Of a DNA stretch of 12,962 bases, positions 1 to 12,962 are shown one piece after another. The stretch lies in NCBI GenBank assembly GCA_025782575.1, contig JALGYY010000031.1, positions 1 to 12,962 of the forward strand, in the 5' to 3' direction. Position numbers and translations under genes: made by a program. The stretch is from a bacterium. GTDB lineage: Bacteria; Orphanbacterota; Orphanbacteria; Orphanbacterales; Orphanbacteraceae. The stretch's first letter is position 1, and the number at the start of each line of letters is the position of its first letter. The notes beneath the pieces are model-generated. The model saw nothing but the letters and a program-made list of their open reading frames with translations, made no database searches and had not been told where the DNA came from.

Positions 1-588
1 CTTGCTCGTGCCGATGAATGAGGTAGTATCCCCCTTAATGTAATTCATATAAACTACAGTAACGACTGTATCAGGAATCCAGTTTTCACTGCCCTGATCC
101 CAATCAACTGTCAGGTTCGGGCAAGGAAAGTCGACGACAAAGCAGGCGAATGCATCGCAAATAATTGGGTTTTCATGGAAGTGCCTCGCGGGGGGGGCTT
201 TTATTCGTGTGCTTGAGCTGCACGTCCAGGCCCAAACCGGACTGGTTCTGACTTGTCCGCTATTTACGCCAATGACAGACACTTCGAACCATGCTTCGAG
301 AGTCCCCCGGTATTTCTTAAAAGGAATCTCGTCCTCGCCCGTCGCGGTAAACCAGACAAAATCATAAGCACCCTGCACGAGCAGGCTATCGCCCATATAC
401 ACTCGATAGCCTCGCGCCGGCCATGTTTTCATTGTGGGATCTTCAAAAAGAGCAAAATAGGCCGAATCCTCAGGTGAAATCCAAGCCCGAATCTCAGGCT
501 GTACGATTTTCCCAAACTGAGTACTGGCGATCGCTGAGTGAAAGCTGGTGGCGATTGCAAGAGTGAGAATGAACAGTAGAGTGCGCAT
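1..588 (-). CDS. Secreted protein of unknown function, C-terminus beyond left edge
   Basis: The minus strand is open from an ATG at 588 to the window edge: 196 codons with no stop, so the gene is partial at its 3' end. The N-terminus (MRTLLFILTLAIATSFHSAIA) is a classical signal peptide with likely cleavage after residue 21, so the protein is exported. The mature part is rich in aromatic residues and beta-formers, with cysteines near residues 123, 144, 149 and 156. It contains a stretch reading VDFPCPNLTVDWDQGSENW. I do not recognise a family. A GAGGAG Shine-Dalgarno lies 7 bases before the ATG. The gene starts 26 bases after the stop of the 188-residue secreted protein gene on the same strand, so the two are probably cotranscribed. 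A run of eight G (190-197, plus strand) lies inside the gene; the frame stays open and protein-like on both sides of it. Confidence 0.85.
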   Translation of the reverse strand, partial: MRTLLFILTLAIATSFHSAIASTQFGKIVQPEIRAWISPEDSAYFALFEDPTMKTWPARGYRVYMGDSLLVQGAYDFVWFTATGEDEIPFKKYRGTLEAWFEVSVIGVNSGQVRTSPVWAWTCSSSTRIKAPPARHFHENPIICDAFACFVVDFPCPNLTVDWDQGSENWIPDTVVTVVYMNYIKGDTTSFIGTSK

Positions 589-614
589 CGGGGAACTCCT
601 CGTGTGAAATCCGG

Positions 615-1181
615 TTAGCGGAACAGCTGTTTTACCTTACTCCAGGAACTGTCATGCGCATGAACCCCCTGCTTCACACGAGAAGAAAAGGGGAGATTGC
701 CATTAGGGCAAGTCTTAAGAATGCTAGCTATAACCGTACCACCGTAAATGTCAGACCCGTCAACGACAACGTAATAGGTGCGATTGGGTTCGAGACAAAC
801 TTCGATGGTTTCGACGCGATTAAATCCAGAGCACGACTTGGCGACACAATCGTTCTTGTCGCACGATCCGAGGAGCATGAGGTCAATATCAGCTACGTGG
901 CCGGGATCCGGACCCGTGAGTAAAATCCTCACTTGCACGCCTAAGCCGGGCGGAGTCGTAAGAGAGTAGACCACATCCCCCCCACCGCCACTACAAGAAC
1001 ATCCGTAGAACAGGACGTTGTCCGGAAAGTTCATCGGATTTCCGCCTCGACTGGGTCCATTCAGGACAAGTGGAGTAGCGTAACTACAGTCAAGCTCGCC
1101 TGCCAATGCTGGGCTAGGGAAGAGTAAGCCGCAAAGTACCAGAAAGCTTGTGAACGTCATCGCTCCAATCCTCACGATCAT
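615..1181 (-). CDS. Secreted PPC-like domain protein with short SWxxVKxLFR tail
   Basis: This is a 188-residue exported protein. The signal peptide covers about residues 8-27 (FLVLCGLLFPSPALA, cleavage before GEL). The mature part looks like a bacterial pre-peptidase C-terminal (PPC) type beta-sandwich: DVVYSL at 69-74, DIDLMLLGSC at 98-107, then the strand pair ETIEVCLEPNRTYYVVVDG at about 124-142. Several cysteines (32, 61, 63, 107, 112, 117, 129, 158) suggest disulfides. The protein ends in the tail SSWSKVKQLFR, which resembles the tail of the beta-helix protein at 11067-12284. A GGAGGTG ribosome site (1187-1193) lies 5 bases before ATG 1181, which supports that start; an ATG at 1160 is also possible. 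A decayed paralog lies directly upstream on the same strand. The family call rests on pattern only; the exported status is firm. Confidence 0.87.
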   Translation of the reverse strand: MIVRIGAMTFTSFLVLCGLLFPSPALAGELDCSYATPLVLNGPSRGGNPMNFPDNVLFYGCSCSGGGGDVVYSLTTPPGLGVQVRILLTGPDPGHVADIDLMLLGSCDKNDCVAKSCSGFNRVETIEVCLEPNRTYYVVVDGSDIYGGTVIASILKTCPNGNLPFSSRVKQGVHAHDSSWSKVKQLFR

Positions 1182-1186
1182 GGGAA

Positions 1187-1193
1187 CACCTCC
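1187..1193 (-). promoter_or_regulatory. Strong ribosome binding site GGAGGTG
   Basis: This is a near-consensus Shine-Dalgarno sequence, 5 bases upstream of the ATG at 1181. It decides that start over the in-frame ATG at 1160. Confidence 0.75.
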
Positions 1194-1209
1194 TCAAGTC
1201 ATAACCAGG

Positions 1210-1477
1210 TTACTGAAACAGCTATTCCGCTTCGCTCCATGCGGCTCCAGAGCTACTGGGATCACATCGACATTGCTTCAAAGTCACCCATACCCTAAGT
1301 GTAGGATCATGCCCGGACTCTTCCACGGACCCTCGGGTTGACTCGGCCATTCACAAGAATCGGCTTAGCGTAATTCTGATTTAGGTCACTGGCCAATGTC
1401 GGGAAAGGGCTGAGGAGCCCACAGAAGAGCAGCGCAATAGGAAATGCTACTACCCCTGTCTCCACGTACACGGTCAT
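1210..1477 (-). pseudogene. Decayed paralog of the 188-residue PPC-like secreted protein
   Basis: An ATG at 1477 opens a 56-codon frame that ends at TGA 1307-1309. Residues 15-44 (LLFCGLLSPFPTLASDLNQN, then YAKPILVNG) match the intact neighbour's LVLCGLLFPSPALAGELDCSYATPLVLNG almost position by position, so a signal peptide and the start of the mature protein are preserved. The PPC core is then missing. The other end of the gene reappears at 1257-1210 as SSSGAAWSEAE-stop-LFQ-stop, matching the neighbour's SSWSKVKQLFR-stop. The internal TAG sits where the neighbour has CAG, a simple C-to-T nonsense change. The bases after the terminal stop also match (TAACCTGGTT here, TAACCGGATT there). I read this as a tandem duplicate that lost its middle and then decayed. 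A short expressed peptide from 1477 cannot be excluded. Confidence 0.72.
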
Positions 1478-1893
1478 CGCCCTGTTTCCTGGACGAACGA
1501 TTAGGAAGCGTCGTTAGGTGGAGCCGCGCGGTCAGGTCGGCGGATGAGTAGGCTTGGAGTTAGGCAACATGACTACCGGCACGGGGTCCTCGGCGCAAAC
1601 TTTCGCTCATTCCAAGTTCCTAGCCTGGGGAAATCAATAAATACTTCTCGACAGCGACTATATCTCGGTTCTGGTGGACTGGCACTTCACCTATCAAATG
1701 TTCGATTCGCCACGAGGCATAGCGTCAATTCGCGGATGTCATCACCGAAACGCCCTCCCTCTCGTTCCTGCGAATGCATCCATATGAATCCAGCCGCAAG
1801 GGAAGTAGAAGCGATCAAAGGGCGGCATCGCTGATGTTGTGTGGCAATCTCTGAAATAGTTCGCACTCAACCGTACTTAGCCAACGCAACGAT
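1478..1893. other. Gene-free stretch between secreted-protein cluster and recombinase
   Basis: About 416 bases without a convincing gene on either strand. A 96-codon plus-strand frame at 1544-1834 has no ribosome site and an unremarkable composition, and I consider it chance. This is where the left boundary of the mobile block should lie. I looked for a direct repeat shared with the right side of the block (9230-9520) and found none by eye. I also saw no rho-independent terminator after the recombinase stop. Confidence 0.5.
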
Positions 1894-2730
1894 TTAGATG
1901 CGATCCACAATATGCAAGTACCGACACGTCACCAAAACGCTCGAATGCCCGAGCAGGTCCCTCACGTGATGCAGCGGCGTACCATTTTCCAGTGTGAGTG
2001 TAGCGGCGGTGTGGCGTAGGGCATGGGCGTTCACCCGCTCGATTCCAGATCGCTCACAGTTCTTCCGCAGGATGTAGTTGATCCCGGCCACGGTGAGGCG
2101 GTTGCCAGTGGTGGAAGTGAAAAACGGCGCGTCAGATGCAACGCCTCGACACACCCGCTTGTGAGCCCGCAGCGCATTGGCAGCATCCCCGGTCAGCGGC
2201 ACGAGCCTGAGCTTCCGCCCCTTGCCGTTCACCCGCAGCAGCACCCTGTGCGAGTGCCAGTTCACATCCCCCCAGTCGAGCCCACAAACTTCGCCGACCC
2301 TAAGTCCGCCGACTCCCATGCAGGTGAGTAGGGCGAGATCACGCCGCCCGATGTGGGAACGCCCGTCCGGTGCGCGGAGGAGTTTGCGTAGCTGGCGAGC
2401 TGTCAGGAACTTGGGCGCGAAACCGCCGGTGCCCTTCGGGGCCTTGAAGCCACGCGTCACATCCACAGGCAGGATCCCTTGCTCCTGCGCAGATCGTAGG
2501 AACGACGCAACCACTGTCGCGCGCCAACGAACCGTCGTAGGCGATAGCCCCCGCTCCCGCAGGTTCGCCACGTAACGCTCACACGTCCCCACACAGGGGG
2601 GATCATCGCCCAGCCAGGCCAGGAACCGGGTTAGCTCGCGCTCGTAGGCCACCTTTGTGGAAGCAGCGTCACAGCGCAGGAGAAAGAGCGGCAGTGCGTC
2701 CAGTAGTTGTGGATCTTGTACAGTAGTCAT
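1894..2730 (-). CDS. Tyrosine recombinase (phage integrase / XerC-D type)
   Basis: This is a site-specific recombinase of the tyrosine (lambda Int/XerD) family, which cuts and rejoins DNA through a 3'-phosphotyrosine. With numbering from the GTG at 2754, the N-terminal SAM-like core-binding domain spans about 22-103 and the catalytic domain about 115-286. The full catalytic set is visible: R152 in GGLRVGEV, K178 in NGKGRK, H244 and R247 in HALRH, H270 in LLGHSS, and nucleophile Y279 in CRYLH. The enzyme therefore looks active. I prefer the ATG at 2730 (278 residues) because GGAGG lies 5 bases before it, whereas the GTG at 2754 has no such site. The length fits Xer-like integrases, and there is no insert typical of integron integrases. 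It lies at the edge of the phage-derived block and is divergent from the HEPN gene, so it is the likely mobilising enzyme of the block. Confidence 0.94.
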   Translation of the reverse strand: MTTVQDPQLLDALPLFLLRCDAASTKVAYERELTRFLAWLGDDPPCVGTCERYVANLRERGLSPTTVRWRATVVASFLRSAQEQGILPVDVTRGFKAPKGTGGFAPKFLTARQLRKLLRAPDGRSHIGRRDLALLTCMGVGGLRVGEVCGLDWGDVNWHSHRVLLRVNGKGRKLRLVPLTGDAANALRAHKRVCRGVASDAPFFTSTTGNRLTVAGINYILRKNCERSGIERVNAHALRHTAATLTLENGTPLHHVRDLLGHSSVLVTCRYLHIVDRI

Positions 2731-2735
2731 GTGCG

Positions 2736-2740
2736 CCTCC
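2736..2740 (-). promoter_or_regulatory. Ribosome binding site GGAGG that fixes the recombinase start
   Basis: GGAGG is 5 bases from the ATG at 2730. The longer GTG start at 2754 would place this site inside the coding region, so the shorter protein is preferred. Confidence 0.65.
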
Positions 2741-2774
2741 AGGTTTGGGTTCACACATGAATGGCTTCAAGTCA

Positions 2775-2796
2775 GAGAAACAGCAAGTGGTTTCTC
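2775..2796. repeat. Perfect 7-bp inverted repeat near the recombinase start
   Basis: GAGAAAC, an 8-base loop AGCAAGTG, then GTTTCTC. It lies 45-66 bases upstream of the recombinase ATG, where an operator, an excisionase/integrase arm site or an mRNA leader hairpin would be expected. No T-run follows it, so it is not a rho-independent terminator. Confidence 0.5.
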
Positions 2797-2973
2797 CGTC
2801 TCGCGGGACAAGAGATCGGAGGGCCTTAGTGGCCTGCTCCCCACTTCCTTATACAGTTCACCGGGGGCCGGAGACTTGATTCGCGATGGGCAACAGCCTT
2901 ATGCGCACAATCTGTTCCAGATGGCTTGTTGTTGGCATGTGAATGTGATTGCACTATTATTGGGGAGTCTAAT

Positions 2974-2990
2974 CTTGGCGATCAGCCAAG
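2974..2990. repeat. Perfect 6-bp inverted repeat with GATC in the spacer, upstream of HEPN gene
   Basis: CTTGGC-GATCA-GCCAAG is an operator-like palindrome about 80 bases before the preferred HEPN start. The spacer holds a GATC tetranucleotide, the common target of D12-class adenine methylases such as the one encoded in this block. The specificity of that methylase is not known from sequence. Confidence 0.45.
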
Positions 2991-3069
2991 CAATGTGGCC
3001 GGGCGAGACGAGCAAACCAGTCTAGACGCCGGGGAAGCTGAGTCGCCCAATCCTATATGCGAGGGGCTT

Positions 3070-4476
3070 ATGATAAGCCGTGAAATTACTCATCGGATCC
3101 GAGGGCGAATCAAGAATCTATCGCCTGATCACAGCGCGAACCTCGTCGTCAGATTTGATCGTTTCGATCCCTCCTCTTTAGATTGTGATTTGACCGTTAA
3201 CTCGAAGAGCCATCTATTCGGAGAGCTTAATTCCCTGTTTGGGCGCGATTGCTTCACAACACTTGAAATCGAAAACCTGGACGATCCGGGATTTCCGATT
3301 GGAATCGTTGCTATAACATCGTTCTCTCAACAGCTTCTGCACGACCACTTGACGCTTTCTCCCTCTGAAGTTCGATTGGGATTTGATCCCCCAACTTCAG
3401 ACCAAGATTCCTCGTTCTTTGTCGCCGTGGAGCTGACGCCCAGCAGGATACTCGGAAGCCCAAGTGCGCGCGAGTATTCTAGTACTGGAGCAATCACCGT
3501 CAGCCCGCCTCAATCAGGCGACGTTATGTTTGAAACGAAATTTGGGACATGGAGGATAATTGAGTCATTCGATTTTCTCGATTCTTCCATGGCCAAGAAG
3601 GACATCACAAACGTTGTGCAAGGAACTACGGTCCGTGGCGAGATAACTGTCCCCAAAGGCGCTACCATGTCCGATGTTCACGATTCGGTTGCAGAGAACA
3701 TATATTCTCTATGCTTGCTGATCGGTTTCTGCTATCGACGTCCAGTCCGAGCCTATGACTATCAGTACAGACCAAAGGTAAGGACAGAATCTACACGGCA
3801 CATCGCCCGAGTCAGAATTCGAACTGAGCCTTATGAGAACAGAGATAGAGATTTGGGACTTATCGAGTATCCAGGTCTCTCTAGTGGTGGCTTGGATCAG
3901 CTGCTCCGCTCCTACAGAGAACACCCGAAACGAGATATCATAAGGCGAGTAATGACTTATCTGTCAGCATCCGCAGCTAGCCCTTTGCTGGAAGAGTCCT
4001 TTTTCCTTTCCGTGTCCTCCCTTGACTTGCTCGTTGGGGCTCTAGATAAATCCCAGAATCATCAAATTGATCGCGCATTGTGGGAGGAACTCCTTCCGAT
4101 GCTCCAAGAAAGCTTGCACACTTTCTGCCAAGACAGGAAGCTTGATGAGCTTGAGAAAATCGTTGCAAAGCGCCTTCCTAAGCTGCGGCATGATCCGCTC
4201 GCTAGCCGGATTTGTCGGCATGCGTCTGCAACCGAAATCGAAACCAATGACCTCTGGCCAAGTCTTGGGTTTAAAGCCGGCATTGAGAGAACTATTTCAG
4301 CTCGCAATGATCTCTTTCACGCTGCCAAGGTTTCTAATCCTGGCGCAATGTACGGGGATCGCCATCGGATCGCCACACTGGTTGAGCGGTTGTTATTGCA
4401 CGAGTTGACCTTTCCGAGCGACCGGCTTAACTACCACAAAGACAGAGAATTGAACCACATAAACACTAGACCCTAG
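3070..4476 (+). CDS. HEPN-domain protein, putative antiphage ribonuclease (ApeA-like layout)
   Basis: This is a 468-residue protein from ATG 3070; GAGGGG lies 3-8 bases upstream. The frame is open from ATG 2926, but that extension is unlike protein. The first ~225 residues are beta-rich and of no family I know. The remainder is helical and ends in a HEPN-type signature: SARNDLFHAA, with R412, N413, D414 and H417 forming the R-N/D-X-H (RX4H) ribonuclease motif, followed by the helix RIATLVERLLLHEL. A beta-rich N-terminal half plus a C-terminal HEPN domain is the layout of ApeA-type abortive-infection proteins, so RNA cleavage on phage infection is my inference; the family is not proven. Composition is AT-richer than its neighbours (25 of 60 GC at 3541-3600 against 35 of 60 at 5881-5940), suggesting separate acquisition. 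It converges with the terminase gene, and the stops share CTAG at 4473-4476. Confidence 0.85.
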   Translation: MISREITHRIRGRIKNLSPDHSANLVVRFDRFDPSSLDCDLTVNSKSHLFGELNSLFGRDCFTTLEIENLDDPGFPIGIVAITSFSQQLLHDHLTLSPSEVRLGFDPPTSDQDSSFFVAVELTPSRILGSPSAREYSSTGAITVSPPQSGDVMFETKFGTWRIIESFDFLDSSMAKKDITNVVQGTTVRGEITVPKGATMSDVHDSVAENIYSLCLLIGFCYRRPVRAYDYQYRPKVRTESTRHIARVRIRTEPYENRDRDLGLIEYPGLSSGGLDQLLRSYREHPKRDIIRRVMTYLSASAASPLLEESFFLSVSSLDLLVGALDKSQNHQIDRALWEELLPMLQESLHTFCQDRKLDELEKIVAKRLPKLRHDPLASRICRHASATEIETNDLWPSLGFKAGIERTISARNDLFHAAKVSNPGAMYGDRHRIATLVERLLLHELTFPSDRLNYHKDRELNHINTRP

Positions 4477-5885
4477 TACATCCCCGGCGGCATATACGCC
4501 CTCGCCTTACTCGCAGCCACAGCGATGGCATCGGCATAGTCGTCATGCGCATGCGCCCGGGTCGGATGCCCCACACGGGACTGCCCACCAGGCAGGAGTT
4601 CTAGCTCTAGGCTTCGCAGCTCTTTGAGCGACACCTCGTGATCAAGCAATTCGATACGCCCGTCCAAGATCATACTGCGAAGCGTGCCGTACATGTCAGC
4701 CTTGGACGATGCGGTGAAGGTTACCTCCCTGAAGCGGATCCCCTCGCTTGCGAACGCCTGCCGGATTGGCTCCGACCCAAACTGATCTCCGTACACGGTG
4801 TGGATGTGGTAGCGCTCTAGCTGCGCTTTGATCTGAGGGATCACCGTTCCCAGCCGGACAGGGTTCTGCTTGCTCCCCTTCCACCCAGCCAGGTGGTTCA
4901 CGACCAAGATGCCTCGCTCCGAATCCTTGTGGGCGATGGCGAAGGTGAACCGGTCCCCTTTGAACGCGGCGTCGATTGCAGCCCGATACATGTAGCAGCC
5001 ATCGATCGGCGGCACCTCGGTCCGGCCTCCCACCACACAGGCTTCGATAGCATCCGCAGGGAGGAACGCGCTCACAGCCTCGGCGAACTCAGCCCCGTAC
5101 TCGCGCTTGTAGTTGTCCGGATCCCTTCGCTTCTCACTCTTTAGGAACTGCTCGGGGACCGCCGGGTTCATGAGGGCTGTAGGTGCGTGCCAGACCAGCA
5201 CGTCCTTGTCCTTCTTCCGGTTTCGCCAGAGATCCCAGAGCACACCGCTCATCGCATAGGGGCTGGATGCGAGGACGAGTTTGGCGTTTGGGAACGTCGC
5301 CATGGCGGGGCGCACGGCACGCAGCACTTCGGCATCAGGGTTAGCGTATCCATCCTCCGTCCACCAGAAAGCAATCTCATCACAGATACAGCAGACGACG
5401 GACAGCCCACGGATTGCTCGGAACGACGCAGGGTAGATGGCAATGGTGATTCCGTTGTTCAGATCAATCTCATTCGCCCTGGTTCCAACAACATGGGAGG
5501 AGAGGATGGGGCTTCGCCTGATCTTCCCCTCGATGTAGCCGCGGACGACCTGGGCCTGCCGCATGTTCTGGGCGAGTAGGAGGACAACGCCACGCTCACC
5601 AGGAGATAGCTTGTGCTTTCGGAAGAAGGCTTCGTAGAGAGCCACATTCGCCGCAATCTTGTCTGACTTCCCAGCCCTACGACCACAGATGAAGGCGGCC
5701 TCCCTATGCTCGCGCGGCTTCCGGGGAGGGTGACCAAGGCACCGGCGGGTGATGTTCTCCAAGTTGCTCAGGATCGGAAGACCGTAGAGGGTCCGAAGCG
5801 CCGCTTCCTGTGCAGGAGAGATGTCATCCCCCACAATGTTCGGATCTCGGATTGCGTCAATGATGCTAATCTTTGCTTTCGCCAT
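4473..5885 (-). CDS. terL: Phage terminase large subunit (ATPase-nuclease)
   Basis: This is the DNA-packaging motor, which translocates phage DNA into the procapsid and cuts it. Numbering is from the GTG at 5888 (471 residues). The ATPase domain has Walker A GRRAGKS at 69-75, Walker B VVCCICDE at 164-171 (D170, E171) and the coupling motif ASSP at 207-210. The nuclease domain, of the RNase H-like Terminase_6C type, shows D306 in AAIDAAFKGD, D368 in VYGDQFGS, and D449/D450 in HAHDDYADA. All key residues are present and the length is normal, so the enzyme looks intact. ATG 5885 is the better start, with GAGGG 5 bases before it. The gene overlaps the upstream Cys-rich gene by 20 bases. The expected downstream partners (portal, protease, capsid) are absent; instead its stop shares bases with the convergent HEPN gene. 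Confidence 0.95.
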   Translation of the reverse strand: MAKAKISIIDAIRDPNIVGDDISPAQEAALRTLYGLPILSNLENITRRCLGHPPRKPREHREAAFICGRRAGKSDKIAANVALYEAFFRKHKLSPGERGVVLLLAQNMRQAQVVRGYIEGKIRRSPILSSHVVGTRANEIDLNNGITIAIYPASFRAIRGLSVVCCICDEIAFWWTEDGYANPDAEVLRAVRPAMATFPNAKLVLASSPYAMSGVLWDLWRNRKKDKDVLVWHAPTALMNPAVPEQFLKSEKRRDPDNYKREYGAEFAEAVSAFLPADAIEACVVGGRTEVPPIDGCYMYRAAIDAAFKGDRFTFAIAHKDSERGILVVNHLAGWKGSKQNPVRLGTVIPQIKAQLERYHIHTVYGDQFGSEPIRQAFASEGIRFREVTFTASSKADMYGTLRSMILDGRIELLDHEVSLKELRSLELELLPGGQSRVGHPTRAHAHDDYADAIAVAASKARAYMPPGMY

Positions 5886-6489
5886 CACTGCCCTCCCTCT
5901 CCTGAGATCGAACCTCGAGATACTTGTCCAGTGTCGGCACCTTCGGTTTCTCTGCCTTCCGATCGGCGATCCCCTGGCGGAACTCCGCGAACGAACGGCT
6001 GAGCGCGTTCTCCAACGAGATCATGCGCTCACCCACATTTCGGATCTTCCCTTGTCGAATATCGATGTAGCCGGCCACCTTGAGATAATTCTCAGATTGG
6101 AACACTCTCGATCGGTGCCGCACGATCTGCTCGATCTTCGCCCGGTCACTGGCGGTCGGTCCCTCGCCTGTGGCATCCCGGATCTCACCGATCAGCTCTT
6201 CGGCCCAATTGATTTGTCGCTCTGTGAGGATGGGGCAGATACGATTCTTCCGGCCCTCGGGGCAGGCGAGATTGTGGCGGGGATTCTTCTTTTTCACAGC
6301 GTAGAGCGGGCAAACCGAGCAGGATAGCGATGTCGGAATCTCAATCACATCGTTGCAGTGGAAGCCGTGCGTCACCCCGGTCCGGCCGAGAGGTTTGACG
6401 CCCTTCGGTGCTCGGACGATCACTTCCCCGGGTAGGGGCTTGAGCAGTGGGACTGGATTGAGTTCGATCTCGTCCGCTTTCTCGTCCAC
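5866..6489 (-). CDS. Cys-rich phage protein in the terminase small-subunit position
   Basis: This is a 207-residue protein starting at GTG 6489 with only a weak GGCGGG site. It overlaps terL by 20 bases, so the two are translated together, and its place directly upstream of terL suggests a small terminase subunit or packaging cofactor. I do not recognise the family. A compact cysteine cluster is visible: C57-x2-C60-x15-C76-x8-C85, with a further C45. This is suitable for zinc or an Fe-S centre. The segment between C60 and C76 is basic (AVKKKNPRH). Residues ~88-175 are helical (WAEELIGEIRDA; RAKIEQIVRHRSRVF; ENALSRSFAEF), compatible with DNA binding and oligomerisation. The frame stays open for 52 more codons upstream (to 6645) without any ATG, GTG or TTG. 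The coding call is firm; the function is inferred from position. Confidence 0.83.
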   Translation of the reverse strand: MDEKADEIELNPVPLLKPLPGEVIVRAPKGVKPLGRTGVTHGFHCNDVIEIPTSLSCSVCPLYAVKKKNPRHNLACPEGRKNRICPILTERQINWAEELIGEIRDATGEGPTASDRAKIEQIVRHRSRVFQSENYLKVAGYIDIRQGKIRNVGERMISLENALSRSFAEFRQGIADRKAEKPKVPTLDKYLEVRSQEREGSDGESKD

Positions 6490-6986
6490 CGAATTCCCGC
6501 CTTTCTCGCTGGGATCGCCCCGATCACTCTGATTATGGGGCCAGAAAGCGCTCGTTTCGCGGCTGACCGGCTGTTGGCCCGGATCCCATAGGTTCTTGCA
6601 ACACGCTGCGGCTGTGTCGCTTACGTGGCCAAACCGGGTGGCCTGTTAGGGCAGGATCTCCATCCACAGCTGTCGAGGTCGTCCCCGATTGGCCCGCGTA
6701 AGGGGCGTTTGTGCCAGGAGTTAGCCGTTCATACGTGCCGCAATGCTAAGGATTTGCCTACCCCGCAATCCAACCCCAGGATGGGTCGTTCCAGAGAAAC
6801 CATAATTTTCTCGTAGCGACAACAATAACAACGCCTTGCGGCGGCCAGCGTCGGCCGACTTCGGCGAGGCCAGCCCCTCGATTAGCCGCCACATTGGCAG
6901 GAAAGGGAGATGCCAGAGGTTCGATCCGATCCCCCGCCCTCACTCAGCACGTTTGCTTTCCATTATATGGCCCACATTTTCCACCC
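6490..6986. other. 497-base gap inside the packaging operon; possible cos/pac region
   Basis: No convincing gene is seen on either strand. A minus-strand GTG frame (6758-6943) and a plus-strand frame (6625-6816) lack ribosome sites and known motifs. The gap separates parB-like and terS-like genes that are otherwise in one tight minus-strand series. It contains a perfect 10-base palindrome, GTCGGCCGAC, at 6850-6859 within a GGCC-rich stretch (GGCC also at 6843 and 6868). Packaging initiation sites of tailed phages often lie beside the small-terminase gene, so a cos or pac function is possible but unproven. It may also hold the promoter for the terS-like and terL pair. Confidence 0.4.
6850..6859. 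repeat. Perfect 10-base palindrome GTCGGCCGAC in the packaging gap
   Basis: The palindrome is self-complementary over all ten bases and flanked by further GGCC words. It may be a protein-binding site, for example for the ParB-like protein or the small terminase. A chance palindrome in GC-rich DNA is also plausible. Confidence 0.35.
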
Positions 6987-7622
6987 TCACTGGACAGATT
7001 CCAGGTAGCAGGTTGCCAGCAACGTCGCCCCCCTTGCCCGCCGGTCCTTCGCCTCACCCACATGGGCCATCGCCCTTTCCATCGCCTCGTCGAAAACCTT
7101 CTTCTGCTCAGGATCGAGAACGAGCGTCACGATGTTCGGGGCCTGGCGATCGTGAGCGGTGGCTTCATCCTCCAGCGCGTCTTCGAAACCTTCGGGCAGC
7201 TGCATGAGCGAGAGCGTGTCCTGAATGTCCCGCTTCTCATATGGAAGCAGCGCCACCATGTCCTCGATCGGCATGTCCTGGTTCAGATCGTTCAGCAGCT
7301 GGGAGAGCAGCGATGGCACCGTGTCGCCGGAGAGGGAGTTCAGGTTGACAGAGAGGATCTTGGCGCGCCGGTCATCGAGATCGACGATCACACAGGGGAC
7401 CGCCTTGAACCCCAACTCATCACGACATACACGCCACCTGTGTTCTCCGCCCAAAAGTTCATATTCTCCCTCAATCGACGGGTGCGGGCGGACAACCAGA
7501 GGTTGCACGAGTCCCTCCCGCTCGATGTAGCGTTTGAGCTTCTGCCGCATCGCGTCGGACATGCGGTTTACGTTCCAAAAATTGGCGTGGATCTGGTCCA
7601 CTGGGATCTGTTCAACCTTCAT
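6987..7622 (-). CDS. ParB-like nuclease/CTP-switch domain protein (phage type)
   Basis: This is a 211-residue protein from ATG 7622. The N-terminal ~100 residues form a ParB/sulfiredoxin-type fold: VEQIPVDQIHANFWN at the start, GLVQPLVVRPHP, then LLGGEHRWRVCRDEL, corresponding to the ParB box-II motif G-E-R/H-R-x-R/W. The fold is followed by VPCVIVDLDDRRAKILSVNLN. The rest is helical and acidic and lacks the centromere-binding helix-turn-helix of chromosomal ParB, so this is the short phage/mobile-element class, not a segregation protein. Some members of that class act as nucleases or guide DNA modification. It is coupled to the upstream methylase: the methylase TGA and this ATG share one base (TGATG), and the ribosome site (GGGAGG) lies within the methylase's last codons. 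A joint role with the methylase in modifying or marking element DNA is inference. Confidence 0.92.
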   Translation of the reverse strand: MKVEQIPVDQIHANFWNVNRMSDAMRQKLKRYIEREGLVQPLVVRPHPSIEGEYELLGGEHRWRVCRDELGFKAVPCVIVDLDDRRAKILSVNLNSLSGDTVPSLLSQLLNDLNQDMPIEDMVALLPYEKRDIQDTLSLMQLPEGFEDALEDEATAHDRQAPNIVTLVLDPEQKKVFDEAMERAMAHVGEAKDRRARGATLLATCYLESVQ

Positions 7623-8644
7623 CACTTCTCCCTCCCCACAACCAAGAGCTCACGATTCTTCTGACGACTCTCCACGCTGGCCAGACCAGTACAATGAACA
7701 TGGTGGATCTCCTCGCCGGTGACGTTGGGGCGGTGCTTTCGCACAAGGTCGATCAGCCCATTTAGATCGATCGCCTTATTGCCGTACGAAATGATCCACA
7801 GCGGGATGTGGGCAGCTGCCTCGAACAACTTTGGCAGTATCTTCTCTGGCGATTCAGTCGAGAACGGGTTCGGACTTACATCCACAGGGGCACCGGTCAG
7901 TAGCTCGTCAAGTGGCCGGCTGGATCGTTCGTAAGATTGTGTGCTCGCATACGGAGGATCAAAGTACGCCACGTCTCCCTCTACACCGGCCAGAAACTCA
8001 AACACGTCACCCTGATGCACCGAGTTCTCCTGCCCATTCGCAAACACCCCGCGGTTGATCGACTCTCGAATCTTGTTCGCCAGGCCGATCGGGTGGTAGG
8101 GGATCTTCCGAGCGAATACGTCTTTCACGTAGTTGGGGTTCATCGCTTCGTAGTCGCCATCTTCCATCTGGTGGATGATTGTCTTGGCACCCCAGTTCCC
8201 CATAGGGCGGAGACCCAGGGCATACTTCACAACCAGCAGGAATGCCAACCACCGCTTCGGACCTTCCAGCTTCCTCGCATTCGCCAGTGCAGCATCCAGG
8301 AACCTCGCGTGTCTCGTGGGGAATACATCGGGGGCCAGACACTTCTCGGCATACCCCGGACCTTCCGTCCACATGAAGAGGCGCACCAGGTCGTCGTACT
8401 CCAGCGTGTACCGGTCGTTCTCAATCAGCGCCCGGCCAACAATCACGGACCGTTCAGCCACATCGTTGCACCGCACCTGGTAGCCGCGGGCTTTGGCGTA
8501 AAGCGATACTGAACCGCCACCGAGGAATGCATCGATGAATACCGGTGCTTCGCTTGGGGACGGGACATGGCGGAAGATGCTGGCGAGTAACCGACGTTTC
8601 CCGCCGAAGTACGCTGGCAGCGCTTGGAAGATCCGAAGAGCCAT
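7622..8644 (-). CDS. D12-class DNA adenine methyltransferase (Dam-like)
   Basis: This is a 340-residue N6-adenine methyltransferase of the D12 (Dam) class, using S-adenosylmethionine. It shows motif X YFGGK at 12-16, the SAM-binding motif I DAFLGGGSVSLYA at 38-50, an NDV (60-62) following the second strand, the catalytic motif IV DPPY at 229-232 (YFDPPYASTQSY), and the C-terminal family hallmark SRQKNRELLVVG at 326-337. All are intact, so it should be active. The target is not readable from sequence; GATC is the common target of the class. The insert between motif I and motif IV, the usual recognition region, is long and distinctive (MGNWGAKTIIHQMEDGDYEAMNPNYV region). No paired restriction endonuclease is encoded nearby, so an orphan, anti-restriction or regulatory role fits. 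It heads the minus-strand series and is divergent from the lipoprotein gene, so the operon promoter lies within 8645-8698. Confidence 0.95.
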   Translation of the reverse strand: MALRIFQALPAYFGGKRRLLASIFRHVPSPSEAPVFIDAFLGGGSVSLYAKARGYQVRCNDVAERSVIVGRALIENDRYTLEYDDLVRLFMWTEGPGYAEKCLAPDVFPTRHARFLDAALANARKLEGPKRWLAFLLVVKYALGLRPMGNWGAKTIIHQMEDGDYEAMNPNYVKDVFARKIPYHPIGLANKIRESINRGVFANGQENSVHQGDVFEFLAGVEGDVAYFDPPYASTQSYERSSRPLDELLTGAPVDVSPNPFSTESPEKILPKLFEAAAHIPLWIISYGNKAIDLNGLIDLVRKHRPNVTGEEIHHVHCTGLASVESRQKNRELLVVGREK

Positions 8645-8698
8645 TAGAACCGCCCCCGGGAACCCAATATCACTCCCGACTGTGATAGATTTGTCATC
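8645..8698. promoter_or_regulatory. Short divergent promoter region between methylase operon and lipoprotein gene
   Basis: Fifty-four bases separate the two divergent starts. On the minus strand, ATGACA (8692-8697) is a passable -35 element, followed about 18 bases later by a weak -10 (GTGATA/TGATAT). No strong Shine-Dalgarno is visible for either gene. Part of the control region may lie inside the lipoprotein gene. Confidence 0.3.
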
Positions 8699-9229
8699 AT
8701 GTCGTACGCAATGCGGTCCATCCTATTTGCCTCGCTTGCCTTTTTCGTGGTGAGCAGCTGCGGTTACACAGTGCTTAAACCGCTTCCCCGTGTTGAATCC
8801 CCCGTACCGGTGCCCGAGGAGACCACAGCGCCGGAGCCCCCTGCACCGCCATTGACCTTCGACTACGGAACGAGGAACATCGGTTTCTCGATCTTGTTCG
8901 ACGAGGATGTCTATGCAACAGGGGACACGGTTTGGATACGGCTGATTAACCTGGGCGCCGAGATCCTGTCCATCTCCGGATTCACGATTCCAAGAATCAC
9001 AGTCGATCAGCAGGTCGGCAGGGAGTGGAGGGGGTATCTTTTGCCATGGTCCCCTGGCCTCCCCCCTATGAAGCGAGAGTTTCTCTGGCATGGCGACTAC
9101 GTCCAGACGTCTTGCGTCATCAGAGACGCTGGCGTTTACCGAGTTCGTACGAACTTCACACGGGGGGGGCAACCGCCTGACACGGAAGCCATCTCCCAGC
9201 ACTTCATTGTCACTGACCCGGAGCCCTAG
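8699..9229 (+). CDS. Putative lipoprotein with Ig-like domain
   Basis: This is a 176-residue protein with a lipoprotein signal: MRSILFASLAFFVVSSC, lipobox VSSC, C21 being the lipidated residue when counted from ATG 8699. The in-frame ATG at 8711 gives a more typical signal peptide; neither start has a clear ribosome site. After C21 comes a Pro-rich linker (PRVESPVPVPEETTAPEPPAPP, ~30-52), then a beta-sandwich: DEDVYATGDTVWIRLINLG at ~68-86 and a closing RDAGVYRVRTNF strand near 142-153. This arrangement resembles Ig-like BsuPI-type domains. It is likely anchored to the inner or outer membrane, facing the periplasm or cell exterior. A long minus-strand frame covers the same bases but lacks a signal or motif and is treated as a shadow. 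It is the only exported protein inside the phage-derived block, so it may be a lysogenic-conversion cargo gene or a host gene at the boundary. Confidence 0.8.
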   Translation: MSYAMRSILFASLAFFVVSSCGYTVLKPLPRVESPVPVPEETTAPEPPAPPLTFDYGTRNIGFSILFDEDVYATGDTVWIRLINLGAEILSISGFTIPRITVDQQVGREWRGYLLPWSPGLPPMKREFLWHGDYVQTSCVIRDAGVYRVRTNFTRGGQPPDTEAISQHFIVTDPEP

Positions 9230-9239
9230 TACCTTCGCC

Positions 9240-9476
9240 CTAGGCATTCGTCTTACCGGTCAGTTGCAGCTTTCCTAGGATCGCATTCTCAATGAGCCTC
9301 GCGGCATCCTTCGAGATCGGATTCCAGTGATGATGGGAGACCCCTCCGGCTGATTTCCCGGCAGGATAGGTCAGAAACAGAACGCCATCCTTCCCTCGGC
9401 GAACGGCGATATTGTTCAGGTAGAAAGCTCCGAAGAGTACGCACGAAGCAAAGCCAACAAGTCCATCTGTATGTCT
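9240..9476 (-). pseudogene. 5'-truncated SpoVG-like gene
   Basis: The minus strand is open for 78 codons between a TGA at 9477-9479 and the TAG at 9240-9242, with no ATG, GTG or TTG near its upstream end. The translation reads DGLVGFASCVLFGAFYLNNI, continues with AVRRGKDGVLFLTYPAG, and ends with HHHWNPISKDAARLIENAIL. The layout matches SpoVG-family proteins: strand, 'short hydrophobic-x-V/I-x-x-G-x-x-G-L-F' hairpin, a Pro-containing strand, the H-P-I turn and a C-terminal helix ending I-x-x-A-(I/V)-L. About 12-15 N-terminal residues and the start codon are missing. SpoVG proteins are small nucleic-acid-binding regulators, and versions occur on phages and conjugative elements. The family call is by eye. 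A start in an unrecognised codon cannot be ruled out, but truncation is the simplest reading. Confidence 0.65.
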
Positions 9477-9479
9477 TCA

Positions 9480-9520
9480 GCCAAAATGGGACAGTTTCTC
9501 CTGAGAGCTAAAGGACACTT
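9480..9520. other. Junction sequence with CTGTCCC-type motif
   Basis: On the minus strand this reads GTGTCC, then GGAGAAACTGTCCCATTTTG next to the break in the SpoVG-like gene. Ends of some transposable elements (IS481/IS21-like) carry TGTC- or CTGTCCC-type words, so this could be a leftover element end. No transposase and no matching inverted end were found, so it is only a suggestion. Confidence 0.25.
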
Positions 9521-9617
9521 ACCGCCACATCCCCTTCACAGCCCCCCAGCTCGTCTGCTCCACTGCAGTAGTCGCACCGCACCCCGCGTCGAGCGCGCCG
9601 ATCCTGCCACAGGCAGC
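9519..9617 (-). pseudogene. Orphan 3' tail of a beta-helix protein gene (33 codons)
   Basis: This minus-strand segment encodes CGRIGALDAGCGATTAVEQT, then SWGAVKGMWR-stop (TAA 9519-9521). It matches the last codons of the intact beta-helix gene (CGLIGALDVGCGATTAVEHT, then SWGAVKGMWR). By direct count, 9521-9617 aligns without gaps to 11069-11165 with 15 differences in 97 bases (about 85% identity), including 31 identical bases at the start. Homology begins 2 bases after the stop codon of the FlgD-domain gene and in a different frame. There is no start or signal peptide, so this is a remnant of a second beta-helix gene, fused by recombination to the end of the FlgD-domain gene. Confidence 0.78.
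9521..9617. repeat. 97-base direct repeat, copy 1 (copy 2 at 11069-11165)
   Basis: The first 31 bases are identical to 11069-11099; overall identity is 82 of 97 by my count. The copies are 1548 bases apart in the same orientation and flank the FlgD-domain gene, so recombination between them could delete or duplicate that gene. Confidence 0.85.
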
Positions 9618-9618
9618 A

Positions 9619-10974
9619 CTACCGCAACAACACCATCTTCCTAGTCGCCGTGAATTCCCCGGCGTCGAGGCGGGCGAAGTAGATGCCGGATTTAACCGCT
9701 TGGCCTGACTCATCTTTGCCATCCCACAAGTGAGCGAGTTCTCCAGCCTCCAAGTACTCATCCACAAGGGCAGCCACTAAACGACCGGTCACATCGTAGA
9801 TGGCGAGCCTGACTTCCGCCTCCTGTGGTAGATCGAATCGAATCATAGTCACTGGATTGAAAGGATTGGGCGCGTTTTGGAGTTGGGATTTCGACTCGTC
9901 GACTATCACCTTGATCTGACCATTCGGAGTTGAAGTTGGAATACCCTCGGTTGTGCATGCGAACGACATGGTGCCTTGCTCAACAGTATCCCCATCAAAC
10001 CCAACTACAAAATCTACTTCAAAGACACCTCCGGCCACAAGAGTGCAAACCTCAACCGGCAAACAAATCGAAACTGACATTAGGGGAGTTGAATTAGTAT
10101 CCGGTGAAGGCGCAGGTACAGACGGATAGAACCACCATGCCTCGCGCTCAAACTTTGTGCTAAGGGTATCCCCATTAATTCTTGACCACATACTTGGCAT
10201 AATTAGTGGCCATGAAACCGGATCAGGATCGTGAATGCTTGAACCTCCGAAGAAGGCAGAGCTATCGGGTGGTCCAATTACCTTCGAATAGATCGGCTCC
10301 GAGAGATAAAGAAAATTAAAAACATCTGGGCCGAGATTCGCAAGTGAAAATGAGTGATGGAAGCACTTCCTACATGATTCTAGTTGCATCGAGGACTTTG
10401 GAAGTGGATCAACCGTGCCCTGCACATTTGCCACAAGAAGAGCTGTTGGGTTGGGAACTCCTCCGGCGTTGAATACATGAAACCTCAATTCATTGATTCC
10501 GGGTACAAATCCATTGGCTATCGTGAACGGATGCAGGTCTTGATAACCCCAACGATCAGTACTGTCACCCGTCCAAGTATCATTTAGGTAGATCCTACCT
10601 TCGTTGTCTGAGGACCACTCGCCGGAGATGGCAGCAGTAGTGTGATCATAGCTTGTCAGATCAAAGGCTATTGTGTAGTCGTAGTACCCGTCTTCGGCCA
10701 AAATGTTGCCGTCATCTGGGCCTATCCATTTTGACCCTACTGGCTCTATGACCCAAGCCGAATTTACCCCCGGCAGTACCTCAAGAGCACCTGGGTCTGG
10801 ACCTGTCATGGAGTAATGCTGTTCTAGGGTATTTCCGGATAATACTTGTCCTGAGTCGTCGACTCCTGAGCTGAAAAGATTCGCAATAGACTCTGCATTC
10901 GCCCCGGTAGCATACAAGCCAAGCGCGAGTAAGTAGATGGGGAGTCGTGGCGCACGAACTACTATTCTGAGCAT
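9619..10974 (-). CDS. Secreted beta-sandwich protein with FlgD-like C-terminal sorting domain
   Basis: This is a 451-residue exported protein from ATG 10974. GGAG lies 7 bases upstream; the frame is open to 11013, but the extra 13 residues are Arg-rich and unlikely. The signal peptide is residues 1-27 (LPIYLLALGLYATGANA, cleavage before ES). Residues ~30-190 form a lectin-like beta-sandwich of the kind seen in exported proteins of environmental bacteria: SAWVIEPVGSKWIGP, YYDYTIAFDL, ISGEWSSDNEGRIYLND, FTIANGFVPGINELRFHVFN. Residues ~205-350 are a second beta-rich region with cysteines. Residues 367-451 are a FlgD-Ig-like/type IX-style C-terminal module starting NAPNPFNPVTMIRFDLP, with YDVTGRLV, WDGKDESGQAVKSGIYFARL and the end TRKMVLLR. 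This module directs or anchors proteins at the cell surface in FCB-group bacteria. The gene follows the beta-helix gene by 92 bases on the same strand. The ligand is unknown. Confidence 0.9.
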   Translation of the reverse strand: MLRIVVRAPRLPIYLLALGLYATGANAESIANLFSSGVDDSGQVLSGNTLEQHYSMTGPDPGALEVLPGVNSAWVIEPVGSKWIGPDDGNILAEDGYYDYTIAFDLTSYDHTTAAISGEWSSDNEGRIYLNDTWTGDSTDRWGYQDLHPFTIANGFVPGINELRFHVFNAGGVPNPTALLVANVQGTVDPLPKSSMQLESCRKCFHHSFSLANLGPDVFNFLYLSEPIYSKVIGPPDSSAFFGGSSIHDPDPVSWPLIMPSMWSRINGDTLSTKFEREAWWFYPSVPAPSPDTNSTPLMSVSICLPVEVCTLVAGGVFEVDFVVGFDGDTVEQGTMSFACTTEGIPTSTPNGQIKVIVDESKSQLQNAPNPFNPVTMIRFDLPQEAEVRLAIYDVTGRLVAALVDEYLEAGELAHLWDGKDESGQAVKSGIYFARLDAGEFTATRKMVLLR

Positions 10975-11066
10975 TGGTCGTCTCCAGCGTACGGTTCGAG
11001 AGTTTCTGGGCACCTATATTTCAAAACGAGTGATCCCTTCCGGAATTGCTCCCTGTAGCAAAGCCC

Positions 11067-12284
11067 TCACCGCCACATCCCCTTCACAGCCCCCCAGCTG
11101 GTGTGCTCAACCGCAGTCGTTGCCCCGCAGCCCACGTCAAGCGCTCCGATCAGTCCACAGGCTGCGCCATCGGGGTGGTTGCCCGGTGCACAGGGGGAGT
11201 TGGCGTGGAGGGTGAAGTCGCCGGTTGACGCATCGCAGAAGAAGGGATCGGCGGAGAAGTCGTTTGTAGATGCCCCTGTCCCTGAGTAGTTTCCATCACT
11301 ATTCTGCCAGAAATTATTGCAGCTCATCGTAAGTGAACCGGAAAGATACTGAAGGCCATATCCGGTGTTCTCTGCGACAATATTATTGTGAAATTGAAGA
11401 GAGGGATTCGGGGCTCCCTTAACCAAGACGACTCGTACACCTGAGTTTCCCCAAAAAGTATTTCCGGTCATGGTAACATTTGCGGATTCGACCACCTCGC
11501 AAGTCGCCCCCTCTGCGGTATTGTTGATTATGAGGTTGTTCTCGAACGTCACAGTCGAGAGATTTGCTTGCAGCGCGCTACTTGCACCTCCCCAGTTATC
11601 CTCAATCGTGTTTCCGGTAATGACAGCGGATGAGCTCACGTAGACGAAAATCGCTCCACCATATGTGGCAGAGTTCTGGCGGAAGATGTTGTCTTCTATC
11701 AAGGTGCTGCCACCCTGGTAGCAGATGATTCCTCCACCATTCCCATTCGGAACAGAGTTGTCGGCGAGAGTGCAGGCCCGGATGGTCGGAGATGAGTTGG
11801 AGTAGGATGCGACGCCGCCCCCGCTGTGACCTTCGTTTTGGTCAATGATGCAGTCCTCGATAAGCGGGGAAGAGCCACTAAAGCAGAGGATTCCGGCTCC
11901 AATTTGACGGAAGCCATCTGCATCGCCTCCCGTAATTCTAAGGGAGGAAATCGTGGTAGCACTCGTGACCCCCTGACAGTAGATGACACGCCCGCTTCCC
12001 TGAGCATCCAGTACAACGAACTCTGGTTCGCTTTCGCCGACCAGGCAAACTCCGGACTTCATAACGATCATCGAGTTGCCGTAAGTGCCTGTATTGATCA
12101 TTGGCTCTTGGTAGGTTCCTGATGCCACAAGAACGGTATCTCCAGCAGACGCTGAGTCGATCCCCGCCTGAATTGTTGGGGCGTCACCAGTCCCATCAGG
12201 CAAGATGTGCCAGGTGGTGGCGTGTGCAGTAGGAGTAAAGAATTGAACCGAGAGTAGAATCGCAAAGACAAGAGAAGCGCGCAT
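11067..12284 (-). CDS. Secreted right-handed parallel beta-helix protein with SWxxVKxMWR tail
   Basis: This is a 405-residue exported protein from ATG 12284; GGAG lies 6 bases upstream, and the GTG four codons earlier lacks support. The signal peptide is residues 1-22 (SLVFAILLSVQFFTPTAHA). Residues 23-58 carry the family entry motif (TWHILPDGTGDAPTIQAGID, then GDTVLVASGTY). From ~90 to ~330 there are about ten turns of a right-handed beta-helix (PbH1-type), with repeats such as IEDCIIDQNEGHSGGG, IRACTLADNS and IEDNIFRQNSATYGGA. The Asn/Cys ladders are typical of pectate-lyase-like folds. No catalytic set is recognisable, so polysaccharide binding or a surface role is as likely as an enzyme. 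The end reads SPCAPGNHPDG, then CGLIGALDVGCG, then the tail TSWGAVKGMWR instead of a FlgD-like module. The 3' end is repeated as an orphan at 9519-9617. Confidence 0.93.
   Translation of the reverse strand: MRASLVFAILLSVQFFTPTAHATTWHILPDGTGDAPTIQAGIDSASAGDTVLVASGTYQEPMINTGTYGNSMIVMKSGVCLVGESEPEFVVLDAQGSGRVIYCQGVTSATTISSLRITGGDADGFRQIGAGILCFSGSSPLIEDCIIDQNEGHSGGGVASYSNSSPTIRACTLADNSVPNGNGGGIICYQGGSTLIEDNIFRQNSATYGGAIFVYVSSSAVITGNTIEDNWGGASSALQANLSTVTFENNLIINNTAEGATCEVVESANVTMTGNTFWGNSGVRVVLVKGAPNPSLQFHNNIVAENTGYGLQYLSGSLTMSCNNFWQNSDGNYSGTGASTNDFSADPFFCDASTGDFTLHANSPCAPGNHPDGAACGLIGALDVGCGATTAVEHTSWGAVKGMWR
11069..11165. repeat. 97-base direct repeat, copy 2 (inside beta-helix gene)
   Basis: The partner of 9521-9617; see that entry for identity. 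This copy is the functional 3' end of the beta-helix gene. Confidence 0.85.
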
Positions 12285-12435
12285 TGGCAGCTCCACAGCT
12301 AAAGAATCACTCGATGCCGGGGGATTTCTTGAAGTCTAACACGGCGCGGGTGCTAGGGGAAGGTGGGAGTGTGGGGATTGTGTTGGAGACATGCACGCCC
12401 AGGCTCGACACCATCGCCCGCAACACAAGAGCCTC

Positions 12436-12465
12436 TTGAGTCTACGCACATCAGTGAATTAAACT
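12436..12465 (+). promoter_or_regulatory. Possible sigma-70-type promoter for the membrane-anchored protein
   Basis: TTGAGT at 12436-12441 and TAAACT at 12460-12465 are separated by 18 bases, each matching 4 of 6 consensus positions. They lie 18 bases upstream of the ATG at 12483. Consensus use in this lineage is not known, so confidence is low. Confidence 0.3.
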
Positions 12466-12482
12466 GTCTCCTAGGGGAAGTG

Positions 12483-12854
12483 ATGGTCATACTAATTCTC
12501 ATATTACTGATATTCATTGTTGTAGCCGGTGTTCTTCTGTTTGGAACGGGTAGCCGAAAGATACGTACTCGTCGCAAACAAGGCTCCGCACGGAGGGATC
12601 TCCCACCGTACCCGAATCATGTTGTCCCAGGACCCTTTGGTGATTGGATTCTCAATCCGGGCAGCACCTTTCCACTTTCGGTCTATGGCGTATCAGAGGC
12701 TGACGCCCAGCAAACCCGAAACGCATTGGAGAGGGAGGACGAAAAGGCGCTCAACTCAATTCTTGCTCGACTGCAGATCCGATGCAGAGAAATCGATCAA
12801 TATATCTTTCAGTTCCGACCTAAGTATCGCAAGGCACTCGGGAGACTGGTGTAG
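12483..12854 (+). CDS. Small membrane-anchored protein of unknown function
   Basis: This is a 123-residue protein from ATG 12483; AGGGG lies 5 bases upstream. The frame is open from 12363, but the added 40 residues would bury the membrane segment behind a soluble leader and have no ribosome site. Residues 1-20 (MVILILILLIFIVVAGVLLF) form one transmembrane helix, followed by a positive cluster (RKIRTRRK), which places the C-terminal domain in the cytoplasm. Residues ~35-123 are soluble: a Pro-rich stretch (DLPPYPNHVVPGPFGDW), a beta-like stretch (GSTFPLSVYGV), and helices (EADAQQTRNALEREDEKALNSIL; CREIDQYIFQF). I do not recognise the family. The frame continues in protein-like fashion after its TAG (12852-12854) for 21 more codons, so the natural C-terminus may have been longer. 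It is divergent from the beta-helix gene. Confidence 0.75.
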   Translation: MVILILILLIFIVVAGVLLFGTGSRKIRTRRKQGSARRDLPPYPNHVVPGPFGDWILNPGSTFPLSVYGVSEADAQQTRNALEREDEKALNSILARLQIRCREIDQYIFQFRPKYRKALGRLV

Positions 12855-12934
12855 CGGTTCAGCGAACGTGAGACAGAGTCAAGAGAAGAGTTAAAGGACA
12901 TATCCGAGTACTATAAATAGGAAAGGAGAAGTCC

Positions 12935-12962
12935 ATGCATGAGAGTCCTGGTCCAGAAAAGG
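12935..12962 (+). CDS. Start of a further gene, cut by the right edge
   Basis: ATG at 12935 follows AGGAG (12924-12928) with 6 bases of spacing, a good ribosome site. Only MHESPGPEK is visible, so nothing can be said of its function. It lies 80 bases after the stop of the membrane-anchored protein gene on the same strand and is probably in the same transcript. Confidence 0.55.

Follow-up and report, generated by a model that had tools for sequence, protein, structure and literature searches.

The cargo of the type IX secretion system (T9SS) is marked by C-terminal domains (CTDs) of an immunoglobulin (Ig)-like kind, about 60-100 residues long (type A, Por_Secre_tail/FlgD_ig; type B, CHU_C), which stand at the end of Sec-exported, structurally diverse proteins. 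Shorter C-terminal tags are known from the PEP-CTERM/exosortase, MYXO-CTERM/myxosortase and GlyGly-CTERM/rhombosortase systems, where dozens of unrelated exported proteins per genome carry them, and from the LPXTG/sortase system, again as a C-terminal sorting tag. Here we describe a short C-terminal tail found on exported proteins encoded in a 12,962-nucleotide stretch of bacterial DNA (hereafter the window; Orphanbacteraceae, Orphanbacterota; assembly GCA_025782575.1, contig JALGYY010000031.1, positions 1 to 12,962). The tail belongs to none of the named families tested. We lean towards reading it, from sequence and distribution, as a short, hitherto unnamed sorting signal at the C-terminus of exported proteins, with T9SS as its most likely reader.

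Compared with the T9SS signals the tail is much shorter (about 16 residues) and is predicted to be helical. Its carriers resemble CTD cargo in having an N-terminal Sec signal peptide (by a heuristic rule), in occurring in genomes that encode SprA and PorU, and in having neighbour genes that carry the CTD. None of 87 carriers matched PF18962 or PF13585 and one matched FlgD_ig; since the defining Ig-like CTD is absent, the carriers are not canonical T9SS cargo. The single match (L096:1310-1762) is a 150-residue protein with a FlgD_ig-like domain ahead of the short tail; no other carrier found has the two together. With the PEP-, MYXO- and GlyGly-CTERM systems the tail shares overlapping choice-of-anchor domains on its carriers; unlike in those systems, its conserved block is the extreme C-terminus itself. 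A search for a transmembrane helix near the tail placed 3 of 87 carriers above a lenient hydropathy cut-off, none of them with PEP, and unlike LPXTG substrates the carriers do not have the architecture of LPXTG, helix and basic tail. As the membrane helix or motif is absent, the carriers fall outside the PEP-, MYXO- and GlyGly-CTERM systems and are not LPXTG proteins either. An earlier note on the window, made from its sequence alone, had described the tail as free of such a hydrophobic helix and as fitting no named family known to its author, and both statements held: among the NCBIfam and Pfam families matched in scans of 24 and 87 carriers none is a model of a tail or sorting tail, and no description of it was present in the literature searched. 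In the beta-signal of the beta-barrel assembly machinery (BAM), the last strand of a barrel is amphipathic and has F or W at its end; the tails instead end in R, and the carriers with a recognisable fold are beta-helix, fibronectin-III (Fn3), PPC, LTD and similar proteins, not barrels.

Tail-bearing proteins of the genome

To count the tail we searched for W..[VIM]K.[LMVIF][FYW..]R-stop as degenerate DNA, with the reversed pattern as control. The 4.88 Mb genome of the window gave 47 matches against 1 for the reversed pattern, and the tail was absent from 400 kb of background sequence. Chance or composition as its source is ruled out by the reversed-pattern controls, in this genome and in six other species of the same phylum (21-64 matches against 0). 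Dropping the stop codon raised the count to 52 (control 2). Three of the five additional matches are real tails extended by one or two residues (WGKIKSLFRDE, WGGIKGLFRE and WGGIKSLFRSR, each then a stop) and the other two are unrelated to the tail; with so few matches added, and three of them near a stop, the motif is a property of protein C-termini. Two of the 47 matches are read-through copies, with TGG in place of the stop, inside a duplicated, fused lipoprotein on contig C24 (26044-27806). There duplicated lipoprotein genes are fused in frame and an internal tail lies between two domains, which looks like the fusion of a tail-bearing gene with the one beside it.

The consensus extends over about 16-17 residues, [PT]-x-x-T-E-x-x-[ST]-W-G-x-[VI]-K-x-[LM]-[FYW]-R at the C-terminus. 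When weighted by family it reaches past the positions used in the search, with T/V/S at -16, A/P/S at -15, T at -14, E at -13 (58%) and S or T at -10 (83%). The codons of the tail vary freely, with every codon for arginine (six) and lysine (two) and each of the three stops in use, showing that selection acts on the protein. This codon variety rules out a DNA or RNA element at the gene end.

Carriers were clustered into families (E<1e-3) after removal of their last 18 residues. The 41 carriers of at least 90 residues in this genome fell into 18 unrelated families, and 173 carriers from many genomes into 67, which rules out one common parent. Under a crude and lenient heuristic rule, 39 of 45 carriers were signal-peptide-like, compared with 38% of 304 background open reading frames. 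The six failures comprise four short remnants, one shortened copy and one reading frame with a long 5' extension, so that essentially all intact carriers are predicted to have signal peptides. Both results go the way the earlier note expected of a sorting signal: the tail is enriched on exported proteins and is not limited to descendants of one parent. Recognisable domains on the carriers include right-handed beta-helix, LTD, CHRD, PPC, laminin-G and pullulanase X25-like domains, and some carriers match the NCBI choice-of-anchor E, V and X domains, whose NCBI names imply a C-terminal anchor that differs from one bacterium to another. The largest tail family of the genome (15 members; the member tested had no Pfam match) includes a tandem array on contig C21 (223729-226221) of five related 'ELDLDG..GNGPD' genes, each ending in the tail.

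Phyla, single-copy carriers and type IX secretion

All seven species examined of the window's phylum have between 21 and 64 tails each. In a second phylum 78 of 80 genomes have between 1 and 32. A scan of named genomes with a GC-rich version of the pattern gives a lower bound on taxonomic range; among the matches listed, most came from metagenome-assembled genomes labelled Candidatus Eisenbacteria, Krumholzibacteriota, Gemmatimonadota and Latescibacterota, and two were clear chance matches (a DnaJ-like protein and a membrane acyltransferase-like protein). The tail-rich phyla are the Eisenbacteria-labelled and Krumholzibacteria-like ones, where a genome has tens of surface-type carriers that are unrelated to one another.

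Outside these phyla, two genomes have a single tail, in each case at the end of a small exported protein that has one Fn3 domain. A profile search with this protein over 39 genomes of a Zixibacteria-like phylum recovered it at full length in 38, the remaining genome being 56% complete. The sequence WG[SG][IL]K[AS][MLI]FR-stop occurs exactly once in 36 of the 39 genomes, and the other two copies fall outside that pattern. In an alignment of 20 members, identity averages 91% over the last ten columns, compared with 38% over the mature domain, and these ten columns form the most conserved ten-column window of the protein. The predicted model shows a confident beta-sandwich (pLDDT about 95) and the tail as a separate and less certain helix (residues 128-135, pLDDT 65-68). 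At 12 of the 22 single-copy loci examined a porD gene is present (at one, L171, it matches NF052317 with E 1e-25 and PF16119 with E 4e-25); where both genes were called, porD lies immediately upstream of the Fn3 gene on the same strand, and a PorV/PorQ-family gene often lies beyond it. The Fn3 gene resembles those of PorA-type or PorD-linked T9SS accessory proteins in its position beside porD and a PorV/PorQ-family gene. Unlike such accessory proteins, its product fits none of the models of known T9SS components, and in the tail-rich phyla neither a recognisable PorD nor the Fn3 protein itself was found. PorD, a periplasmic part of the extended T9SS translocon, is bound to SprE in Flavobacterium johnsoniae, where its deletion has no detectable effect (PMC10994853); in Porphyromonas gingivalis it binds PorW and aids secretion (PMC8754138).

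The link to T9SS goes beyond these loci. In the first set tested, SprA, the T9SS pore, was present in nine of nine tail genomes and absent from seven of seven genomes without a real tail. A search of the second phylum, which could have undone the link, left it standing: 78 of the 80 genomes have SprA, among them all 46 that are complete. Among the tail-bearing genomes tested, SprA is lacking only from two incomplete ones, and the PorU sortase is present in tail genomes. Genes for tail-bearing proteins also lie beside genes for T9SS cargo: of the 27 in the window's genome, 8 have a neighbour with a FlgD-type T9SS CTD, compared with 30 of 649 other genes (p=5e-5), and elsewhere 21 of 128 adjoin a T9SS-CTD gene, compared with 37 of 560 others (p=1e-3). 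The earlier note had suggested looking for a co-occurring protease or transpeptidase; the co-occurring machinery is most likely T9SS, going by SprA, PorU, the porD loci and gene adjacency. A dedicated neighbouring sortase was not found, since gene clustering at about 100 tail loci and 22 single-copy loci gave no recurrent protease or transpeptidase. GroEL, near six tail loci, came mostly from one synteny group and was set aside. In three genera of the phylum (L277, L279 and L282) a PorU-like paralogue of about 1400 residues is in conserved synteny with a beta-helix tail gene. As a tail-specific sortase this paralogue is a weak lead, the beta-helix tail gene being about 5 kb away with other genes intervening.

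Tail copies and other genes in the window

Direct reading of the window recovered the four tail copies on which the earlier note was built, all on the reverse strand. A PPC-like exported protein of 188 residues (615-1181; reading frame and sequence) ends in SSWSKVKQLFR and a stop, these 11 residues and stop occupying 615-650 (sequence and pattern match), and its paralogues on contigs C18, C39 and C42 keep the tail. Beside it lies a decayed PPC-like paralogue (1210-1477; 45% over residues 3-42) with the damaged tail AAWSEAE-stop-LFQ-stop at about 1210-1245. At the other end of the window is the gene of a right-handed beta-helix exported protein (11067-12284 or 11067-12296; PF13229, E 1e-22) whose tail, TSWGAVKGMWR and a stop, lies at 11067-11102 (sequence and pattern match). 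An orphan fragment at 9519-9617 reads SAACGRIGALDAGCGATTAVEQTSWGAVKGMWR and a stop, with the tail TSWGAVKGMWR and stop at 9519-9554, and is what is left of the 3' end of another beta-helix gene. As the two beta-helix ends are paralogous and the decayed copy is related to the PPC-like protein, the window alone holds two independent carriers. The protein encoded between the two beta-helix ends (9619-11013, reverse strand) has FlgD_ig (PF13860, E 1e-7) and, weakly, Por_Secre_tail (PF18962, E 4e-5) matches, that is a T9SS CTD, and ends in KMVLLR and a stop without the short tail, as the earlier note had it for a FlgD-domain protein with a sorting module of its own. The beta-helix tail gene, which has the same orientation, ends 53 bp upstream of its gene. 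A structure predicted for the PPC-like protein with three close homologues reached a pLDDT of 39 and was not used as evidence.

The window's contig and contig C18 both open with a 90%-identical segment of 1.6 kb (1-1621 in the window) that contains the PPC-like gene and its decayed neighbour. Because the C18 duplicate carries the same broken tail, the tail was broken before the segment was duplicated. Several tail genes sit close to a contig end, at about 1.5 kb or less (C6, C16, C22 and C39), and repeats of tail genes probably break the assembly. Between the tail genes, 1894-8644 is a block of mobile-element genes, with a phage integrase (1894-2754), a terminase RNaseH-like gene (4473-5888), ParB_N (6987-7625) and a D12 adenine methyltransferase (7622-8644); it is probably a prophage remnant.

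Readings of the tail and its likely reader

We propose that the carriers would leave the cytoplasm by their signal peptides through Sec export. In the periplasm the flexible tail, predicted to form a short helix apart from the folded domain, would then be recognised by envelope machinery, most probably a T9SS component, which would take the carrier to or across the outer membrane. The Zixibacteria-like phylum would use the signal on one dedicated protein, encoded at a porD/porV-type locus, and in the Eisenbacteria-labelled and Krumholzibacteria-like phyla it would have spread to tens of unrelated surface-type proteins. What the sequences show is the C-terminal position of the tail, the export of its carriers whatever their fold, its conservation at the protein level, its distribution, and its association with T9SS in genomes and among neighbouring genes; the helix, T9SS as reader, the final destination and any cleavage of the tail are what we infer here. 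Several observations weigh against T9SS as the reader. The co-occurrence is correlational and confounded with phylogeny, and two genomes (G046 and G118) have T9SS and no tail. PorD as a universal reader is ruled out, being undetectable in the tail-rich phyla, unless it has diverged there, and no candidate-reader gene recurs beside multi-copy tail genes. Adjacency to CTD genes may reflect merely the clustering of surface-protein genes, and the signal-peptide rule is crude. A bolder version, that the tail represents a third class of T9SS signal in which a minimal peptide stands in for the Ig-like CTD, beginning on the single-copy Fn3 protein of the porD locus and then spreading over dozens of unrelated surface proteins in other phyla, is a tentative speculation and to us somewhat doubtful.

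The tail could instead act by itself, as a membrane-binding amphipathic helix that needs no dedicated reader and keeps exported proteins at the inner membrane or on the inner side of the outer one. The spacing of W, V, L and F would suit one helical face with K and R, both the Fn3 model and a second model of low confidence predict a helix, and a membrane-spanning segment is absent. We consider this unlikely, since the helical moment is unexceptional (0.52, compared with 0.36 +- 0.14 for shuffles) and about equal to the strand moment, the near-invariant W, G, K, F and R and the upstream T/E/S preferences are stricter than membrane binding needs, and the links to T9SS would be left unexplained. 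Less likely still is a role in docking, with the tail holding accessory proteins on the T9SS machine, or on some other envelope complex, and not marking cargo for export. A nearly universal, single-copy protein beside porD does look more like a machine part than cargo, but the tens of unrelated surface-type carriers per genome elsewhere do not. Tail-specific proteases favour nonpolar C-terminal ends, and a tag by which a periplasmic protease or quality-control system would recognise its targets, although compatible with a short, extreme C-terminal element behind a flexible linker, sits poorly with the charged terminal arginine and with the tail's conservation, both across dozens of carriers that are unrelated and on a single-copy protein that is nearly universal; we regard it as improbable. 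As for a passive tail, derived from shared descent or recombination of gene ends or from a DNA or RNA element that overlaps the stop codon, tandem paralogues do occur among the carriers (as in the C21 array) and orphan tail fragments exist, yet the 67 unrelated families, the free use of synonymous codons and the peak of conservation in the last ten columns of the Fn3 family leave it hardly any probability.

The tail gives a sequence handle on the proteins that these uncultured phyla send to a common envelope address, and with it annotators could name hundreds of orphan proteins as targeted. How T9SS recognises its cargo is still poorly understood. If T9SS reads the tail, about 16 residues would do what otherwise takes a domain of 60-100, and cargo recognition would become testable with short peptides. 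If T9SS is not the reader, the tail would point to another, undescribed outer-membrane sorting route.

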